38,400 bases of DNA from Thiotrichaceae bacterium (lineage in GTDB: Bacteria > Pseudomonadota > Gammaproteobacteria > Thiotrichales > Thiotrichaceae), in the NCBI GenBank assembly GCA_015486375.1, contig WFRR01000122.1:1-38400 (forward strand), written 5' to 3'. Under the pieces are notes generated by a model. It was not told where the DNA came from, made no database searches, and saw only the letters and a program-made list of their open reading frames with translations. The position numbers and the translations under genes are program-made. Below, in pieces: positions 20,021 to 27,211 of this stretch. How positions within the stretch are numbered: the stretch's first letter is position 1; the number at the start of each line of letters is the position of its first letter.

Positions 20021-20122
20021 TTAAAAAAGTCCTTTAAGGATAAAAATCACAAGCTCTGGATTCAAGATAAGCGCCACCAATACAATGGTTCTAGTAATTC
20101 TCACTAAATGTTTATCATTCAT
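20021..20122 (-). CDS. Mini membrane protein, 33 aa, between portal and protease
   Basis: ATG at 20120-20122, overlapping the last codons of the portal gene; TAA at 20021-20023 directly abuts the protease ATG (20018-20020). The 33 residues start M-N-D-K-H-L-V-R-I-T-R followed by one hydrophobic helix (T-I-V-L-V-A-L-I-L) and a second short hydrophobic segment (L-V-I-F-I-L-K-G-L-F). The fit to the base between two essential head genes argues that it is translated. Function unknown. Similar tiny membrane peptides occur elsewhere in this phage (27215-27337, 21398-21586). Confidence 0.6.
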   Translation of the reverse strand: MNDKHLVRITRTIVLVALILNPELVIFILKGLF

Positions 20123-21380
20123 TTTTCGCAATTCTTTTAATGGCTTGCATTTCTTTATCGACCTTTTTATTAACGGCTTGTTTTTGGTAATCGCCTGCAT
20201 CTACCATATTCATTGGTTGCAGGTAAATATCACCACCTTGGTCTTTGCTTAGAGGGGGCAGGTTTTCTAAGCGACGTATATCGTTCACTGAGAGCCAACC
20301 CCATTGCCTACCTTGTGCATAAGAGTTAAAGCGGGTTGCCATATCACCCCTTAGTAGCCCCGAAACATTAAATTCAATGTAGTAATCTTTGCGTTCTTCT
20401 TGAGTGAGTAAGTCGCGCATCATAGCGGCTTCATGGCGTTTAACCCACGGCATTAATGAGTACATAACATACTGCAATGCTTGGCTTTCTATATTGGAGA
20501 AGGTCGCTTTATCCAATGATTGAATCATGTGCGGCGGGATATTATAAAGCCGCGCCACCTCATTAATACTGTGCGCCCGACTAGCAAGCAGTTGTGCATC
20601 TTCATTGCTCATGCTAATGGATTTAAATTTAAAACCGTCTTGCAATACAGCTATATCATCAGATGCCCCTAGACCGCGATACAACTTATTCCATTGTGCT
20701 TTTAATGCGTCAACCTGCTCTTTACCTAATGGTTTTGCACCTTGGACCCAATCCCGTTCTAGTGTGCCTTTTAGGTTTGTGCCATTCGAGAATATTTCGC
20801 TCGCATGTTGTTCAGTGGCCAACGCTAAACCAATTCCCTCACGTCCTGCTTGAATAGGTGATAAGCCTACATAAGCATTAGTTTTAAAAGCGGCGATATG
20901 GTGCATTTTGGAATAAGGCACATTAAATTCATTTTGCTCTAGCAGATCAAATACGGGCATACGATTACTATCGACTCGTACAATAACTTGCGATGGGTCA
21001 AGCGGGATAATCGCGTCAATTTCACCCGAGCCGCTACGCATGACGCGATTGTAACTATTGCCGCGCAAGCCCAGCGCGCCCTGCTGATATTCGTGGTAAT
21101 CAAAAGCAGTCATCCAGTCATTAGGAGCGTGGCGTAATTTATCAAATAGGCTGTGGTCAGTGGCTTTGTCTCGATTGCCTTTTTTGTCAGTGCGTCGATA
21201 AAGATTGCAAGGCAGTTGTGCTACGGATTCTGATAACAATCGAACAGCAGCATACACAGCAATAAAACCCATCGCGCTCTCGGGTGTGACGTGAATGCCT
21301 GACTTGCTAGCAGACGCACCCCCTAGCGCAGAACTAAACCAAGATGACGGGCGAGATACACCCGTACTGCGGGTCGCCAT
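20115..21380 (-). CDS. Portal protein, HK97 family
   Basis: 421 residues from the ATG at 21378-21380, preceded by AGAGGA; a GTG at 21398 would add six residues. Features of the HK97 portal family are A-V-Y-A-A-V-R-L-L-S-E-S-V-A-Q-L-P near the N-terminus, L-R-G-N-S-Y and H-H-I-A-A-F-K in the middle. The clip/stem segment N-E-V-A-R-L-Y-N-I-P-P-H-M-I follows, then L-T-Q-E-E-R-K-D-Y-Y-I-E-F-N and the late N-D-I-R-R-L-E-N-L-P-P. It forms the dodecameric ring at one capsid vertex and docks terminase. The C-terminus is Lys rich. Confidence 0.95.
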   Translation of the reverse strand: MATRSTGVSRPSSWFSSALGGASASKSGIHVTPESAMGFIAVYAAVRLLSESVAQLPCNLYRRTDKKGNRDKATDHSLFDKLRHAPNDWMTAFDYHEYQQGALGLRGNSYNRVMRSGSGEIDAIIPLDPSQVIVRVDSNRMPVFDLLEQNEFNVPYSKMHHIAAFKTNAYVGLSPIQAGREGIGLALATEQHASEIFSNGTNLKGTLERDWVQGAKPLGKEQVDALKAQWNKLYRGLGASDDIAVLQDGFKFKSISMSNEDAQLLASRAHSINEVARLYNIPPHMIQSLDKATFSNIESQALQYVMYSLMPWVKRHEAAMMRDLLTQEERKDYYIEFNVSGLLRGDMATRFNSYAQGRQWGWLSVNDIRRLENLPPLSKDQGGDIYLQPMNMVDAGDYQKQAVNKKVDKEMQAIKRIAKNE

Positions 21381-21397
21381 CAGTCCTCTAAAAAACA

Positions 21398-21586
21398 CTA
21401 AGTTTTATCAGCCGAGGTTTGTTTAAGTAGCATGATTTCAGCTCCAATGCTGACATACCAGCTATACCACATACCAAACAACCCACCAAGAATATAAGCA
21501 ACGATGGGTTGCCATTGATACAAGCCGTAAGTAAAGGCTATAAAGCCCATCAAACCCACCAGAAATGTAAATATATCGCTTAGCAT
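21398..21586 (-). CDS. Small two-helix membrane protein
   Basis: 62 residues with two hydrophobic helices (about residues 4-20 and 28-46) and a short Lys-containing tail. It is the first substantial gene after the second late promoter and its terminators, directly before the portal gene. The stop TAG overlaps a possible GTG of the portal gene. Small membrane proteins before the portal occur in many HK97-type phages but their role is unknown. A role as holin is possible but the lysis cassette at 28.3-30.3 kb already has a better candidate. Confidence 0.65.
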   Translation of the reverse strand: MLSDIFTFLVGLMGFIAFTYGLYQWQPIVAYILGGLFGMWYSWYVSIGAEIMLLKQTSADKT

Positions 21587-21689: not shown

Positions 21690-21723
21690 AAAAAAAGCCG
21701 ATGATTTCCGTCATCGGCTTTTC
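21690..21723. terminator. Bidirectional intrinsic terminator
   Basis: AAAAGCCGATGA and TCATCGGCTTTT form a perfect 12-bp stem with a six-base loop, and runs of A and T on both sides make it active in both directions. It is the second of two terminators between the late promoter at 21811-21863 and the portal operon. Confidence 0.85.
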
Positions 21724-21732
21724 TTTGGGCAT

Positions 21733-21770
21733 AAAAAAAGCCCGTCGCAGTAAAGTGACGAGCTTTTTTT
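21733..21770. terminator. Bidirectional intrinsic terminator
   Basis: AAAAAAAGC-C-GTC and GAC-A-GCTTTTTTT form a stem with one mismatch and a ten-base loop, flanked by seven A and seven T. On the minus strand it lies about 50 bases after the predicted start of transcription from the late promoter, as tR' follows pR' in lambda. Confidence 0.8.
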
Positions 21771-21810
21771 GTGTTTAAATTCTTTCCTCAGGGACTTTTT
21801 ATCTGTTTGT

Positions 21811-21863
21811 CGCTGAACTATAGTAATTTATACACTAAAAGTGGCACGCAAATCAACCACTTT
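21811..21863 (-). promoter_or_regulatory. Second late promoter, Q-type architecture
   Basis: Minus strand: TTGATT (-35, 21856-21851), an 18-base spacer, TATAAA (-10, 21832-21827), start near 21820, and TATAGT a few bases after it. 27 bases (21837-21863) are identical to 30637-30663, and similarity continues through the -10 and early transcribed region (15 of 20 positions). The element also contains the inverted arms AAAGTGG and CCACTTT. An identical spacer and a -10-like element just after the start are marks of Q-dependent promoters such as lambda pR', where Q binds between -35 and -10. Two terminators follow. Confidence 0.65.
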
Positions 21864-21915
21864 TTTATTTGATTTTTTTACTCACTGTTTTTACAGCATT
21901 TTTTAGGGATTATAT

Positions 21916-22749
21916 TTACTTTTCTGTACTGATGACTTGCTGCTGTACTTCAAGGCGGGTTTGACGATCCTTTTCTGATGCTTGCACGATAAAGACAAAG
22001 AAAGCAACAATGAACATTGATATAATCAGCCCTTTGCCTTTAGTCGGTATAGTTCTACCTGTTTCCGCATAGAAGAAGTTTCTAGGGGCGGGTAATACAA
22101 ACAAGGCTGAAAGCACCAACATACCTCCCGCCAATGGTGCAAAAATCATAAATACAACACCTAATATTAGCAAAACATTCCCCATTAATAATACTAATAG
22201 ATTACTGACTTTCTTCTTGATAAGTGAACCCGTTGAGTGGCTCATCATTTTTATTAAATCTAAAGCAGCAATACAGTCCCCCAGGGCAGAATGATCACCC
22301 CCTTGCAGTTTTTGCCAACGCTCTACCTCCAGATAAGCAGAATAATTGAGCATAACGCAGTTGAATTCATAATCTTTATAAAGAAAGGTTTTATTTGCTT
22401 TTTTAAATGATTGTTTAAGTAGGCGTTTATCGTATTTTGCATTGTAAATTAAGACCAAATTCCCCTTTAGTAGCTGGGTGATTTCATCATAATATGCGTC
22501 AATGGTGGGACAATCCTTTAAATCCTTATATTCAATACCATGAATAGCAGTGGCATCTGCGAATTCTCTTTTCTCTAAAGGCTTAAAACGCTGATTCATC
22601 AAGGTTTTGCCTGATGTATTGATAATGGCCAATTCAATAATTTCATCATCATCCCCTAGTCCCGTTGTTTCTGTGTCCAAGATTACACACTTATTAGGGT
22701 TTCTTAATAGCATTCTTGCCCACTCTATTACTTCTGCCTTTTCACTCAT
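21916..22749 (-). CDS. Membrane-anchored DEDDh exonuclease (DnaQ-like)
   Basis: 277 residues from the ATG at 22747-22749 (AAAGGG upstream; a GTG at 22758 would add three). Residues 20-170 are a DnaQ-like 3'-5' exonuclease. Exo I is I-L-D-T-E-T-T-G-L-G (Asp25, Glu27), Exo II is Y-N-A-K-Y-D (Asp107), and Exo III is H-S-A-L-G-D (His153, Asp158), so the DEDDh set is complete. Unusually, the C-terminal third holds three hydrophobic helices (about 182-202, 204-220, 240-257) and a short charged tail, so the nuclease should sit on the inner face of the membrane. It shares an upstream palindrome with the next exonuclease gene. It lies in the accessory block between terminase and portal genes, so it is not a core phage function; defence or superinfection exclusion is a guess. 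Confidence 0.85.
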   Translation of the reverse strand: MSEKAEVIEWARMLLRNPNKCVILDTETTGLGDDDEIIELAIINTSGKTLMNQRFKPLEKREFADATAIHGIEYKDLKDCPTIDAYYDEITQLLKGNLVLIYNAKYDKRLLKQSFKKANKTFLYKDYEFNCVMLNYSAYLEVERWQKLQGGDHSALGDCIAALDLIKMMSHSTGSLIKKKVSNLLVLLMGNVLLILGVVFMIFAPLAGGMLVLSALFVLPAPRNFFYAETGRTIPTKGKGLIISMFIVAFFVFIVQASEKDRQTRLEVQQQVISTEK

Positions 22750-22810
22750 ACTTATCACCCTTTATCTTTAAGAATCAAGTTACAAACATGATTTTAGTTT
22801 GTCATGAGCA

Positions 22811-22822
22811 ATATGTATACAT
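22811..22822. promoter_or_regulatory. Palindromic operator candidate ATGTATACAT (copy A)
   Basis: The perfect ten-base palindrome ATGTATACAT (22813-22822), within ATATGTATACAT, lies about 64 bases upstream of the membrane exonuclease start. The same core sits about 70 bases upstream of the BRCT exonuclease start (23842-23851). On the minus strand both are followed by ATATT and TCAT. Likely a shared regulator binding site; no regulator is identified. Confidence 0.5.
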
Positions 22823-22896
22823 GTGGACGCGCAAAGCCAGCTCAGCATTGTAAATCTGATGGCTATATTTCAGTAATTGAAGGAATGGACGAGGTT

Positions 22897-23772
22897 TTAT
22901 CCTCTCACCAAAGATAAAAAATCTTGCTCTGTCATTATTCTTATCGGTACTCCTTGCTTTGCAAGTTGCTCAACTTTCTTTTGCTTGCTGCTAATTTTAT
23001 TACCTCTTAGTGCGGCAACTTCAAAAGAACCAACTACAAGTATGGTTATGGTCTTTTTTCTAATGGTGGGCGAAACATAACAACCTGCTTCTGCGGCAAT
23101 TGCAGCAATTTCTCGACGTATTATACTTAGCTTCCCTGTAAAAACGACTTCCTCGCCAAATAAATCCCCATCAGGATTGCCTTCTATTTTGATTACCTTT
23201 AAATAACTGTTATCAGGTGAGTGGATTTGCATAATAGACTTAAAGGAAAGCTGCAACCACTCTTCAATCGTTTTTCCTGACTCTTTAATTGCCGCCAAAA
23301 GTATCATGCCTGATGCTCTCGCATCCTCCAAAGCATCATGATGCTGAAACTCAAACTTAATATAAGCAGCAAGATTAGCCAAACCATAACCTGCATAGGC
23401 GAATTGCTCCCATGTCCGTCTTGCGACTCTAGCACTATCCAGCCAAACACATTGAGGTGGAGGCACATTAATTTTAGCAAAAGCTTGTGTGAGTGCATTT
23501 TTATCAAAGATAGTATGACTAACCACCACAGGAAATTCTGATAAATATCGACTTAATTTGGAGCTAACCTCTAAAAAGGATGGAGAATCCTTAACATCAT
23601 CCTCGTCTATGCCATGAATATCAATATTCATCCAATGAAACCACGTATCAGGGTTAACTAATGTTGACCATGAATCAACTTCTTTTCCATTCTCGAATGC
23701 CACGACCCCTATCTGACAAATACTACCTTGATCAGGATTTGCTGTTTCCACATCAATTACCACGAATCGCAT
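22897..23772 (-). CDS. DEDDh exonuclease with C-terminal BRCT domain
   Basis: 291 residues. The exonuclease domain covers residues 1-165: V-V-I-D-V-E-T-A (Asp7, Glu9), S-H-T-I-F-D (Asp90) and H-H-D-A-L-E-D-A (His145, Asp150). A linker follows, then a BRCT domain from about 206 to the end (V-V-F-T-G-K-L ... I-A-A-E-A-G-C-Y-V-S-P-T-I-R-K-K-T). This two-domain type resembles DNA polymerase III epsilon-like proteins found in bacteria and some phages. The BRCT domain suggests binding to DNA ends or nicks. AGGAGAAATATTT precedes the ATG, a good ribosome binding site. It has its own upstream palindrome. Its partner is the membrane-anchored exonuclease downstream. Confidence 0.9.
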   Translation of the reverse strand: MRFVVIDVETANPDQGSICQIGVVAFENGKEVDSWSTLVNPDTWFHWMNIDIHGIDEDDVKDSPSFLEVSSKLSRYLSEFPVVVSHTIFDKNALTQAFAKINVPPPQCVWLDSARVARRTWEQFAYAGYGLANLAAYIKFEFQHHDALEDARASGMILLAAIKESGKTIEEWLQLSFKSIMQIHSPDNSYLKVIKIEGNPDGDLFGEEVVFTGKLSIIRREIAAIAAEAGCYVSPTIRKKTITILVVGSFEVAALRGNKISSKQKKVEQLAKQGVPIRIMTEQDFLSLVRG

Positions 23773-23836
23773 AAATATTTCTCCTGTTAACTACAACATC
23801 TACCAATTGTCAGATTTTAATCTTAGTGATCTATGA

Positions 23837-23856
23837 TTAATATGTATACATATTAA
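23837..23856. promoter_or_regulatory. 20-bp perfect palindrome (operator copy B)
   Basis: TTAATATGTATACATATTAA reads the same on both strands. Its core ATGTATACAT is shared with 22813-22822. It sits in the intergenic region upstream of the BRCT exonuclease gene, next to the remnant of another exonuclease gene. Confidence 0.6.
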
Positions 23857-23857
23857 A

Positions 23858-23920
23858 GTTCAGATTAATAATTTCATCATTATTATTACCTAACCCCTTT
23901 GTTTCTGTGTATAAATTCAA
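23858..23920 (-). pseudogene. Remnant of a third DnaQ-like exonuclease gene (Exo I region)
   Basis: Minus-strand translation gives Y-T-E-T-K-G-L-G-N-N-N-D-E-I-I-N-L. The membrane exonuclease has D-T-E-T-T-G-L-G-D-D-D-E-I-I-E-L at its Exo I motif, and the DNA is clearly related (both contain AATAATTTCATCAT and GTTTCTGTGT). The first catalytic Asp has become Tyr, and no open frame surrounds the segment. It is probably a decayed paralogue left by recombination within the accessory block. Both this segment and copy B of the palindrome lie together, so an older exonuclease gene may have been partly replaced. Confidence 0.55.
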
Positions 23921-23936
23921 GCATTGGATACTCTAA

Positions 23937-23972
23937 ATATTTAGCCGCCACAGTTTTGTGTTGGCTAAATAT
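23937..23972. repeat. 10-bp inverted repeat (strong hairpin) between divergent genes
   Basis: ATATTTAGCC (23937-23946) and GGCTAAATAT (23963-23972) pair perfectly around a 16-base loop. It lies midway between the minus-strand exonuclease gene and the plus-strand antitoxin/KilA-N operon. It could be a terminator remnant or an operator; there is no T run. Confidence 0.4.
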
Positions 23973-24056
23973 AACCGATATCATAGTTAATTCAGGCACT
24001 TAATTTTATTAATCAAATCCATATTTGATTTTTATGCTAATTCCTAATGAATTATA

Positions 24057-24112
24057 TAGACTGTATTAGCTAATTAGAGCTATAATAGCTAAAATACAAG
24101 GAGGATATGATG
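24057..24112 (+). promoter_or_regulatory. Promoter and ribosome binding site of the antitoxin-KilA-N operon
   Basis: TAGACT (24057-24062) with a perfect TATAAT at 24081-24086, 18 bases between. The -10 region is flanked by TAGCTA palindromes (TTAGCTAATTAGAGC and ATAGCTAAAA), a likely operator for autoregulation by the Phd-like protein. AAGGAGG at 24098-24104 is a very strong ribosome binding site. Confidence 0.6.
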
Positions 24113-24271
24113 AAAGTTACATCAACAGAACTTAAATTAAGGCTAGGCAAATACCTGAAAGAATCTTTTAGAGACCCTGTAATAATCAGCGTTAGAGGGA
24201 ATAAAGAAAATGTACTTTTATCCTTTCATGAATACGAGAGATTAAAGTCAGCAGAGAAACAGGAAAAATAA
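24110..24271 (+). CDS. Phd/YefM-type antitoxin, no toxin partner seen
   Basis: 53 residues from the ATG at 24110 (another ATG directly before it is too close to AAGGAGG). M-K-V-T-S-T-E-L-K-L-R-L-G-K-Y-L-K is the usual start of Phd/YefM antitoxins, and P-V-I-I-S-V-R-G-N-K-E-N-V-L-L-S-F-H-E-Y-E-R-L matches the DNA-binding half (P-V-x-I-T-x-x-G). Only a short tail follows, so most of the C-terminal toxin-neutralising part is missing. No RelE, Doc or YoeB-like gene follows; the next gene on the strand is the KilA-N gene 75 bases on. It may be an autonomous repressor, a solitary antitoxin against host toxins, or a partner of the KilA-N protein. Confidence 0.8.
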   Translation: MKVTSTELKLRLGKYLKESFRDPVIISVRGNKENVLLSFHEYERLKSAEKQEK

Positions 24272-24346
24272 AGATATTCAGTACCTTAAAAGAGCTGTAG
24301 GAAGCCCCTTTAAGGCTAATCAACATGATCTAAATAGGAGATCACT

Positions 24347-25351
24347 ATGACCAGTAATAATATTAACACACCGTTAACACATCGTTCATTTAAAAAATTC
24401 AACATACCCCAAAGGCAAAGCGACGGCTATTTATCAGCAACAGCTATGTGTAGTATGACGCAAAGAAAATTTAGTACTTACTTCAGATCATCAAAAACTA
24501 AAAAATATTTAACAGCACTATCGACCGATGTGCAAATTTGCACATCGGATTTAATTCAAACACTTAAGGGGGGAAATGAAGAGCAAGGAACATGGATTCA
24601 TCCTAAAGCTGCAATCCATTTTGCACAATGGCTTAGCCCTGAATTTGCTGTTCAGGTAACTAATTGGGTATACGACTGGATGACCATAGGTAACACTCCA
24701 TCATTCCAACAAAAAATTCATATACCTACATCTTTAATCCCTCTCAAATACCACGGTTCGACCTTATTATTGGTACAGCACAATAATGCACTCTGGGTTG
24801 ATTTTGAAAGCGTTGTCTCTGCTGCAACACTGGATTATCGCTACCAATCCAAACGCGCTACGCTGGAAACCTTGGATTTAGGTAAGGTTGAAGGTAAATT
24901 ATCCATTATTAGCATGGATAATTTAGCCCTTTGGCTAGAGGGTATTAATATTAAATGCGTTAGTTTAAAGAAACAGTATGTAGTGACTCGTACCAAATAT
25001 GAATTGCATTCTTTTCTTACTGCAAAGATTGCAGAATTACCGCAGCTTATTGAGTCAGAGCCTGAGCAAGTTGAGATGAAGCATTTAGGTCATTACAGCA
25101 TCGATACTGTCATGAAAGAAGTAGCTGAGTTCCATCCTGATTGGATTGTGATTAACCGCAAGGCACTGTCAGAAGATGTTGAGTATGTCGCTGATATATT
25201 AATGGAAACGCAAGCTAAAATTAGACAGCAAGTTGATCCTTTAATTACAATTTTAGGTACACAAGATACTGATAATGAAAAAGAAGCAGAAGAGTTCTGG
25301 AAGCGACGCAAGGCGAAAGCACTTAAGAAACTTCAAAGAGCTATCGCTTAG
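24347..25351 (+). CDS. KilA-N domain protein
   Basis: 334 residues. The KilA-N DNA-binding domain occupies about residues 10-125: D-G-Y-L-S-A-T-A-M-C (20-29), Y-F-R-S-S-K-T-K-K-Y and G-G-N-E-E-Q-G-T-W-I-H-P-K-A-A-I-H-F-A-Q-W-L. That last segment, with W-V-x-D-W-M after it, is diagnostic. The C-terminal 200 residues are mixed alpha/beta with a basic helical end (F-W-K-R-R-K-A-K-A-L-K-K-L-Q-R). TAGGAG precedes the ATG. It is on the opposite strand to all surrounding late genes, with a terminator behind it, so it is probably expressed from the lysogen. KilA-N proteins are often phage anti-repressors or nucleic acid binding; the role here is not known. Confidence 0.9.
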   Translation: MTSNNINTPLTHRSFKKFNIPQRQSDGYLSATAMCSMTQRKFSTYFRSSKTKKYLTALSTDVQICTSDLIQTLKGGNEEQGTWIHPKAAIHFAQWLSPEFAVQVTNWVYDWMTIGNTPSFQQKIHIPTSLIPLKYHGSTLLLVQHNNALWVDFESVVSAATLDYRYQSKRATLETLDLGKVEGKLSIISMDNLALWLEGINIKCVSLKKQYVVTRTKYELHSFLTAKIAELPQLIESEPEQVEMKHLGHYSIDTVMKEVAEFHPDWIVINRKALSEDVEYVADILMETQAKIRQQVDPLITILGTQDTDNEKEAEEFWKRRKAKALKKLQRAIA

Positions 25352-25385
25352 TTAGAAAAATATAAATAAGATACTATCTATACCT

Positions 25386-25423
25386 AAAAAGCCCAAAGAA
25401 CCTTATGTTTCTTGGGCTTTTTT
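25386..25423. terminator. Bidirectional intrinsic terminator
   Basis: AAAAAGCCCAA ... TTGGGCTTTTT forms a long stem with A and T runs on both sides. It separates the convergent KilA-N (+) and terminase large subunit (-) genes and should stop transcription from both. Confidence 0.85.
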
Positions 25424-25441: not shown

Positions 25442-27211
25442 TTAGATATAAATTTCCTCTTCATAGGCAGATTCAGTAGATTCTGTTTCACCACCTAGCA
25501 TTGCACCCACTGCCATTATCAATGACACGGCAGGGTCAATTTTTTCTGATGATTTTTTCTTGTCAGGTTTTACGTTTTCGGCAGGATCAACCACGGCAAC
25601 CACATTGCCCATCGCCCATTTTAGGACAGGATTACCATCATGGTGCAGTTGCTGGGACAAATACAGCCGCTCTAGCTCTTTGGTTGCAGGTGACATAGAT
25701 TTATAGCCCTGCCCCATTGCAACTAATTTATCTTGTAATTCTTCTTTTAAATCTTTAACAAATTGATGAATTGACCAGCGATCTACCGCAATATTAACCA
25801 GTGGTAGATCGTCTAATAGCCCTGTTTGTCCTGATAACCCTGAAATATCTGCGTGGATAAAGTTGTAATCGACTACATTGCCCGGTGTAGCAACCAGCCA
25901 ACCTTGTTCCACCCAAAGGTCGTAAGGTAAACCGCGCTCTTTGACAGCACGCAATACTGCTGCCTCGGGTATCCACGAACGCGACCATGCCCGTTTTTCA
26001 CCGTTGGGAAACACAGCAATCAAACTAAAGCTAGTCAGGTCACTGATACTACCTAAATCTAAACCGCCATAAACCTCACCTGCCCCTTTGAATGATTCGA
26101 GTTCATAGCTTGCCTTACATTGATCCCATTCTTCCAAGTTGCACCAGCTTATCGCATTAGAACGCCATACATTAAAGTTTTTAGTTAATACTCCAAAGCG
26201 AAACACGGGACTATTCAAAGCCTTGGTGACTTCTTTGCGTAGATAATCACGTTTGACTGATCCGCGCATCACGGCTTTACCTTTGCTATCTACACCAATT
26301 TTATACTCTAAATTAGGATTAGCTTTAATCCAGTTTTTTTCATTCTGAAAGTCATCTCCTGCATCCAAAGCGTAAATAATGCAGAAAAAGTTATCGTCCT
26401 GATATTTCCCTTCTAGTACATTGCAACCGTATTCTCGCTTCTGTAAACAAATAGATTCTTCTTTAGGTCGCACTCTTCCTGCTGTTGTGATTGCCCAACA
26501 CAAAGGTTGTGAACGTGAACCCATCCCTGAAATAATAACATTGTAGATTTCAGCAGTTTTATGAGCATGCAATTCATCAACTAACCCTGCGGAAGGGTTT
26601 GCACCGTCAATTGCCTCTGCATCGCGGGATAACGGGATAAAAAAACCATCATTTGAAGGGGCTTCAATTAGGCTTTCAGAGTCTTTTATTTTAATTAAAC
26701 GCTTAACTGAGGGCGCGTAACCAAGCATTTTTCGAGCATCGCGCCACAATCGTTTAGATTGTTCTCTGGTGGTTGCTGCTGCATAGACCTCGGGTGCGCC
26801 TTCGCCATCGAGCAGCAACATAAACCCACCTATACCTGCTAATTTAATGGTTTTACCGTTTTTACGTGCGACTTCTTCATAAACTTCATTGTATCGTCGC
26901 AATCCATCCTTGTTTTGCCAACCGAAAACCACGGATATTATCCAACATTGCCACGCCTCAAGCTGCAATTGCTTACCGCGCCACTCACCTTTATAGTGTT
27001 TTAGGTAGTAAAAGAACACTAAAACCCGTGCTGCTTCGTATTCATTAAAGCTTAAACCACGCAAATGCGCGTTTTCTCGGTCCTTTTCGTCCCTTTTTAC
27101 TGCCAATTTGACCCATTTACAAGCAACAACTGTCCCTGATATTACGTCTTTAGCGTATTCTCGAGCAAGCTTAAGGCAATGCTGAGCTATTTTTTGTTGT
27201 TGTGGGTTCAT
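25442..27211 (-). CDS. Terminase large subunit
   Basis: 589 residues. The ATPase domain has the Walker A variant A-R-K-N-G-K-T (115-121) and Walker B G-L-V-D-E-L-H (209-215), which is the HK97-type terminase pattern. The C-terminal nuclease domain has G-G-L-D-L-G-S-I-S-D-L-T (first Asp), D-R-W-S-I-H-Q-F and a final I-D-P-A-V-S-L-I-M-A (third acidic residue). It pumps DNA into the prohead and cuts it. The start follows the stop of a 40-residue membrane peptide by three bases. Confidence 0.96.
   Translation of the reverse strand: MNPQQQKIAQHCLKLAREYAKDVISGTVVACKWVKLAVKRDEKDRENAHLRGLSFNEYEAARVLVFFYYLKHYKGEWRGKQLQLEAWQCWIISVVFGWQNKDGLRRYNEVYEEVARKNGKTIKLAGIGGFMLLLDGEGAPEVYAAATTREQSKRLWRDARKMLGYAPSVKRLIKIKDSESLIEAPSNDGFFIPLSRDAEAIDGANPSAGLVDELHAHKTAEIYNVIISGMGSRSQPLCWAITTAGRVRPKEESICLQKREYGCNVLEGKYQDDNFFCIIYALDAGDDFQNEKNWIKANPNLEYKIGVDSKGKAVMRGSVKRDYLRKEVTKALNSPVFRFGVLTKNFNVWRSNAISWCNLEEWDQCKASYELESFKGAGEVYGGLDLGSISDLTSFSLIAVFPNGEKRAWSRSWIPEAAVLRAVKERGLPYDLWVEQGWLVATPGNVVDYNFIHADISGLSGQTGLLDDLPLVNIAVDRWSIHQFVKDLKEELQDKLVAMGQGYKSMSPATKELERLYLSQQLHHDGNPVLKWAMGNVVAVVDPAENVKPDKKKSSEKIDPAVSLIMAVGAMLGGETESTESAYEEEIYI

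Follow-up and report, generated by a model that had tools for sequence, protein, structure and literature searches.

A varying palindrome inside phage KilA-N genes as the probable target of the DNA-binding domain they encode

Results

A palindrome within a phage KilA-N gene

The DNA analysed here (the window) is a stretch of 38,400 nucleotides from a Thiotrichaceae bacterium (contig WFRR01000122.1, positions 1 to 38,400) with a genome of 2.67 Mb. It carries phage head and tail genes on the minus strand, among them the portal gene (20115–21398) and the gene of the large terminase TerL (25442–27211). The block between these two (21690–25423) holds two exonuclease genes, a small Phd-like open reading frame (ORF) and, on the plus strand, a KilA-N ORF (24347–25351; PF04383, E 9e-22) with a P22_AR-like C-terminal part. 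The subject of this report is a perfect 24-bp palindrome in the KilA-N coding sequence, CCGATGTGCAAATTTGCACATCGG (24525–24548; codons T-D-V-Q-I-C-T-S-D), and its relation to the recognition helix of the same domain, which is encoded ~50 bp upstream and starts with the plus-strand codons of S43, T44, Y45, F46 and R47 (24473–24487).

An earlier note on this block, made from the letters alone, missed the palindrome, which was found via a terminator scan of the window and is the strongest feature of the block. With two perfect 12-bp arms it is the sole loopless palindrome with arms of at least 10 bp in the 38.4 kb, and none of 100 shuffles contained its sequence. Rfam gave only weak matches, at the terminators and far below gathering scores. 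A literature search, with most subscription papers and all preprints beyond its reach, found no publication on a palindrome in KilA-N genes.

Homologous loci were gathered as sets of 63 viral loci, the best 80 of 92 loci from bacterial genomes, the best 80 of 251 viral loci, 7 plasmid loci and the best 80 of 96 viral loci of a second subclade; within the phylum, KilA-N matches occurred in 18 of 398 genomes. The scan patterns behind the first three of these sets avoid the site, and those of the bacterial and the 251-locus viral sets also avoid the helix. One pattern of the second-subclade scan lies on the helix (KRFAHYME), and one pattern of another scan, which kept the best 80 of at least 594 loci, lies on the site (IPPLEQNQ).

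The window palindrome is centred on the codon aligned with a central Ile, and homologues from an E. coli phage, a Proteus phage and a genome of the same family carry a different palindrome at the same codons. Mean complementarity over 11 pairs was 0.82 at this centre, compared with 0.08–0.37 at 16 shifted centres (173 unique domains from 236 loci). Among 125 non-redundant representatives, picked in input order, at least 9 of the 11 pairs were complementary in 90, at least 8 in 104 and fewer than 8 in 21, whereas control centres in the same genes gave at least 9 pairs in 3 of 10,102 cases and 10 pairs in none. As many as 49 different 11-nt arms occur among the 90 palindromic representatives, and a single fixed centre is found across two families and several phyla. 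An enlarged set of 343 loci, from which 8 without a match were dropped to leave 335, yielded 151 representatives, 108 of them palindromic, a count that favours palindromic members as the most palindromic representatives were picked first. In clade 2 (phrog_129; 84 loci, 68 unique, 38 representatives), 27 representatives had at least 9 of 11 pairs at a centre taken as the best in a region and not fixed beforehand; in two loci of this clade (L220 and L221) the palindrome is kept one base out of the reading frame.

The closest viral-contig relative of the window KilA-N gene among the loci listed (L305, 2495–3265; 58%) has a CGCGAATTCGCG-type palindrome and shares its contig with a tail-sheath-like gene; the contig bears the same sample number as L034, a close relative described below.

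Conservation at the level of DNA

Complementarity extends to positions at which the protein leaves the base free. Wobble pairs 5, 8 and 11 were complementary in 112, 96 and 111 of the 125 representatives, as against 79, 85 and 88 when codons were shuffled within amino acids (p<0.0002 for each). The residues flanking the central one at -2/+2 (Met/Ile, Thr/Val, Val/Thr, Ala/Ala, Leu/Arg) vary in complementary fashion because their codons pair.

Self-complementarity of this kind would also form an mRNA hairpin with a stem of 8–10 pairs and an AAUU loop, and the least conserved inner pair, pair 2 (62%), is indeed loop-like. However, pair 1 is kept as a pair (88%), residues of the DNA-binding helix follow the arm bases (see below), and the arm mismatches comprise 9 G.T or T.G, 18 A.C or C.A and 20 others. 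There is no preference for G.U among them and therefore no sign of RNA pairing, and on this ground a conserved RNA hairpin was ruled out; we give it a negligible probability. On this comparison of sequences, what is kept is DNA.

Helix residues track the bases of the arms

When mutual information was calculated between the bases of the arms and residues beyond the central codons, the top scores fell on helix positions 44, 45, 48 and 49. I67, S68 and E69 also scored but, as residues that the right arm encodes, were left out of account; Q82, K75 and P79 have lower scores. Positions are numbered from the L007 domain (Met = 4), so that 44, 45 and 48 correspond to S43, T44 and R47 of the window protein, and the residue tables cover palindromic representatives only. 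Among the 108 of these, pair 5 G goes with Arg48 in 68 of 69 cases and pair 5 C with a residue other than Arg in 36 of 36, 35 of them having His45, while T goes with Leu or Gln and A with Gln. This agrees with the usual contact chemistry, in which Arg reads G and Gln reads A. Taken together, pairs 5-4 and residues 45 and 48 combine as GG with Asp45 and Arg48 (60/62) and as CG with His45 or Arg45 and non-Arg48 (35/35); L310 is of an H45/E48 type. The window fits the rule, with G at pair 5, R47 at position 48 and T44 at position 45.

The association recurs along the phylogeny. On a tree from which the columns of helix and site were left out, the base at pair 5 changes 21 times, and Arg48 follows it in 17 of 17 independent comparisons on supported branches, never going the opposite way (p 1.5e-5). 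For pair 6 and residue 44, ~9.9 comparisons went the same way, none the opposite way and 6.1 showed no difference (p 0.002). The rule is repeated in clade 2 at the aligned helix position, where G goes with Arg or Lys in 10 of 10 representatives and non-G goes without them in 16 of 17 (Fisher 1.3e-6, a test that ignores kinship).

Template switching in hairpins is known to correct imperfect palindromes in bacteria, and such a mutational bias would likewise yield compensated arms that covary without selection. It gives no account, however, of a link between arm and helix that spans ~50 bp with unlinked residues in between, nor of a centre that stays fixed across both families and several phyla. 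Normalised mutual information with the site was 0.00–0.21 for columns 50–59, compared with 0.86 for residue 45 and 0.96 for residue 48. The columns between helix and palindrome being thus nearly unassociated, mutational correction was ruled out as the sole cause, and we hold it to be very improbable. For the same reason helix and site have not simply moved as one linked piece, and transfer as a linked cassette was also discarded. As far as the alignments and the tree reach, site and reader diversify together; they coevolve.

Structure of the KilA-N domain

The KilA-N part of the E. coli phage member (L076), modelled with a mean predicted local distance difference test score of 92.6, resembles Mbp1 (Z 10.2, root-mean-square deviation 2.8, 89 aligned) and the PCG2-DNA complex 4ux5 (Z 9.6, root-mean-square deviation 3.5, 96 aligned); Foldseek alone found no match with E <0.001 for this model. 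The model puts positions 44, 45 and 48 at the beginning of the helix coming after the first one of the helix-turn-helix (H40–45/H47–60, L076 numbering). In the model of the window protein, only the KilA-N part is of good quality. The domain thus shares the fold of the Mbp1/APSES proteins; in one of these, PCG2, helix B enters the major groove and its K62 contacts a G (PMC4333399, accessible text). Unlike in our genes, no intragenic site or coevolving palindrome is described in the accessible text of that paper. A by-eye equation of positions 45 and 48 with PCG2 K62 and R65, through a conserved N-A-T, was not relied on, as the HMMER alignment to Mbp1 has a gap there.

BstA and other relatives of the protein

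All four full-length clade-1 proteins scanned (three palindromic, one not) belong to the BstA family, with phrog_6287 matching the three palindromic members at E 3e-89 to 4e-47; in two phages examined the clade-1 gene lies directly after cI. The BstA C-terminal domain is present in L007, L136 and L137. According to the accessible text of PMC8585504, BstA proteins form a family of prophage defence factors whose locus contains a DNA element, aba, that confers cognate self-immunity; aba has also been supplied on a high-copy plasmid, and the bstA genes of E. coli NCTC10963 and K. pneumoniae 52.145 have cognate aba elements as well. The same text leaves open the way in which aba suppresses BstA and the location of the cognate elements for other BstA proteins, and reports that aba in its native place could not be disturbed without changing the protein; the string "palindrom" does not occur in it.

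The window protein has a KilA-N-like N-terminal domain, matched by phrog_6287 at residues 23–106 only (E 2.8e-10). Its C-terminus resembles P22_AR_N (Pfam E 0.044; 14.4 bits, below the cut-off of 30.7) and the anti-repressor Ant of phrog_524 (E 8e-5), and is 61–64% identical to two genes of the same genome, L035 (C118, 10237–11241) and L036 (C149, 11432–11671). In that genome the same C-terminal part thus stands behind an N-terminus that we take to be AntA-like, and as a remnant beside uvrA, a sign of domain shuffling among antirepressor-like genes. Phage KilA-N/antirepressor regulators of phrog_129 (for example SfV orf44 and ST64B sb46; P22_AR) likewise join KilA-N to interchangeable C-terminal parts, and many of them have a varying palindrome at the same codons. 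They differ in that the window C-terminus is P22_AR-like; their own DNA targets are not described in the papers found.

Two further observations concern the family at large. Some clade-1 members with TGL(P/S)E-like residues in place of GIP (L011, L138, L299, L300, L291 and L304) are BstA-like KilA-N genes without a palindrome, and one 2.5 Mb genome (G459) holds four equal-scoring BstA-like KilA-N copies (L395, L411, L415 and L417).

The block between portal and terminase

Next to the portal gene, at 21398–21586 on the minus strand, is a gene for a small membrane protein of 62 residues (phrog_502, E 1e-7), a position occupied in phage AS1 by another small gene, gp3. The accessory block follows. 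Its edges are marked, much as the earlier note had proposed, by terminator-like elements: two stem-loops with T/A tracts on the portal side (21690–21725 and 21730–21773) and a third between the KilA-N gene and TerL (25386–25422; inverted repeat I10, 88% complementary, then a T tract). The two different DEDDh exonucleases named there are also borne out as minus-strand ORFs. Exonuclease 1 (21916–22758; RNase_T E 1e-14, PADLOC DEDDh 1e-22) has hydrophobic C-terminal segments, read from its sequence, by which it is possibly membrane-anchored. Exonuclease 2 (22897–23772) matches RNase_T (E 2e-20) and phrog_192, phrog_2561 and phrog_3869, and its C-terminal part resembles ligase/BRCT regions, which points to a BRCT domain. 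DEDDh exonucleases are common in phages. What had been described as a dead third copy amounts to ~90 bp (23820–23910; repeat families D1, D5 and D6) with similarity to the region ahead of exonuclease 1 and to a short part of its 5' end, at 79, 77 and 75% in three pieces.

On the plus strand, the Phd/YefM-like ORF (24107–24271, 54 residues) passes the cut-off of PF02604 (E 9e-9; 35.4 bits versus 29.8), so that this gene, too, is as claimed, together with the KilA-N gene. No toxin adjoins it: the neighbouring exonuclease 2 and KilA-N genes match no toxin family. Toxin-antitoxin-like genes do lie beside the palindromic KilA-N genes L037, L136 and L137 (Doc-like with a small partner, RelB, and DUF1778 with GNAT), an arrangement that may be compared with the window Phd-like ORF. 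The lysogen-style promoters of the earlier note dissolve into chance, with 16 promoter-like sites against 15.6 in shuffles; one reasonable site, at 24057–24086 on the plus strand (10 of 12 consensus matches), precedes the Phd-like and KilA-N ORFs.

The 4-kb block is an insertion, because TerL and portal are adjacent or one small gene apart in three annotated relatives (Marinobacter AS1, Burkholderia KS9 and Halomonas QHHSV-1). A close relative (L034) has a truncated exonuclease 1 at this place, matching the 5' end over 150 bp (86%), together with the same terminators and the portal gene (74%); its contig does not include the terminase side. Viral scans with exonuclease 1 found L034 only, exonuclease 2 and the complete KilA-N protein of the window found no relative in such scans, and a portal search in 95 genomes gave, outside the window's own genome, only a 27% match.

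The whole block might be a cassette that benefits the lysogen, perhaps a defence system with the exonucleases as effectors, a proposal compatible with the palindrome. An accessory, variable insertion between TerL and portal is supported by the comparison with relatives, and the exonucleases match, besides a generic DEDDh model, the PADLOC candidate-defence model PDC-S48 (E 1.3e-31 and 1.7e-17), in the company of a KilA-N gene from a clade rich in BstA. The viral scans nevertheless uncovered no recurring set of exonuclease, Phd and KilA-N genes, and promoters are at chance level. The two-nuclease defence system is supported only indirectly, and we regard the cassette as unlikely, if still worth considering.

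Discussion

We propose, with a probability of roughly 80%, that the KilA-N domain has its cognate double-stranded DNA site in the palindrome within the very gene that encodes it, the intragenic and self-directed character of the site included. That the domain physically binds its own gene's palindrome is, given the coevolution of helix and arms, more probable still. The site would be bound by two subunits, one per half-site, each inserting the N-terminal portion of its helix B into the major groove, and base pairs 5 and 4 would be read by residues 45 and 48.

Several observations weigh against this proposal. Fewer than 9 of 11 pairs are complementary in 35 of the 125 representatives and in 43 of the 151 of the enlarged set, so the palindrome appears dispensable in some relatives. 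The rule linking residue to base is tight at pair 5 and weaker elsewhere, and off-diagonal controls showed some association as well (6.8 to 0.2 for pair 5 and residue 44, 5.8 to 0.6 for pair 6 and Arg48). It also has exceptions, one in an interrupted gene (L398, G with H45/S48) and one in clade 2 (L182), where supported branches offer only one independent pair. In the 4ux5 complex most base contacts come from the wing and not from helix B.

Further difficulties arise from the comparison with the BstA/aba system of Salmonella phage BTP1. Both systems are prophage-encoded, combine a KilA-N or KilA-N-like N-terminal domain with a short DNA element in the protein's own locus, and show cognate specificity between protein and element, and all three palindromic clade-1 proteins tested fall within the BstA family. 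However, BstA of the BTP1 type, the case in which self-immunity was demonstrated, differs in its N-terminal part and has no palindrome (no comparable one in five genes examined, the best being L389 with a score of 6). Its aba, 63 bp long and containing CCCGCC as direct repeats, lies at the start of the gene, and the accessible text of PMC8585504 notes no inverted symmetry in it, whereas here a palindrome lies in the codons of the KilA-N domain and the residues that would read it can be named. CCCGCC repeats were not seen, by eye, around the window KilA-N start codon. The window protein itself lacks the BstA C-terminus (no PADLOC BstA match; the phrog_6287 match ends at residue 106). Its gene sits between the Phd-like ORF and TerL, not behind a repressor.

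As to the purpose of binding, the distribution of the site narrows the choice. No second copy within 5 mismatches was found in 105 of 108 loci; the window, 673R7 and Proteus V3 likewise gave none, nor did the first 50 kb of PhiR5_2, an E. coli phage that infects K-12 MG1655. Over the 900 bp that precede the gene (107 loci), the best operator-like match averaged 9.51 mismatches, compared with 9.50 for foreign motifs. A near-exact copy (1 mismatch) does occur about 600 bp upstream of the KilA-N gene in L266 (2013–2034), the sole locus of this kind, and L334 has an upstream palindrome whose arms are unlike those of the internal one (2339–2360). The lack of second copies and the control-like upstream regions argue against a regulon of further operators, which was ruled out, and leave intragenic autoregulation or self-recognition.

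Plain autoregulation would mean that binding is real and that the protein occupies the palindrome, ~180 bp from the start of its gene, and thereby blocks or tunes transcription of that gene. It would suit a site that lies in the gene itself and normally nowhere else, but promoters show no operator-like copy outside L266, and autoregulation does not obviously favour a specificity as diverse as 49 arms in 90 representatives. We consider it a possible but less probable purpose. We prefer self-recognition as in BstA/aba because self-immunity needs a private, diversified specificity; by this analogy it is the leading function, though we put it forward tentatively and at somewhat less than even odds. 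Under self-recognition, the protein would mark its own phage's DNA because the sole copy of the site is normally in the gene itself. Prophage KilA-N effectors would be silenced or redirected once their own genome, with its cognate site, is induced and replicates, and rivals carrying a different palindrome would not be spared. The output of the window protein may be regulatory rather than abortive infection, because reader and site are present and the C-terminus is P22_AR-like, not BstA.

By extension, and again at a little under even odds, these genes could form a widespread class in phages and plasmids, in which a DNA-binding domain has its private palindromic target inside its own gene and the pair acts as a self-versus-rival tag for several effector C-termini, BstA included. 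If true, reader and site would be inherited together; the genes also provide a case of a protein and its probable DNA site coevolving inside a single gene. The palindrome and the rule linking residue to base offer a testable candidate for the cognate elements of other BstA proteins, and the four wobble-to-wobble pairs mean that the palindrome can be altered without changing the protein. The rule would also provide the KilA-N/APSES fold, common to phages and fungal cell-cycle regulators, with a natural code of DNA recognition. The coevolving helix and palindrome suggest a way in which prophage proteins of this kind could distinguish their own DNA from that of a rival.

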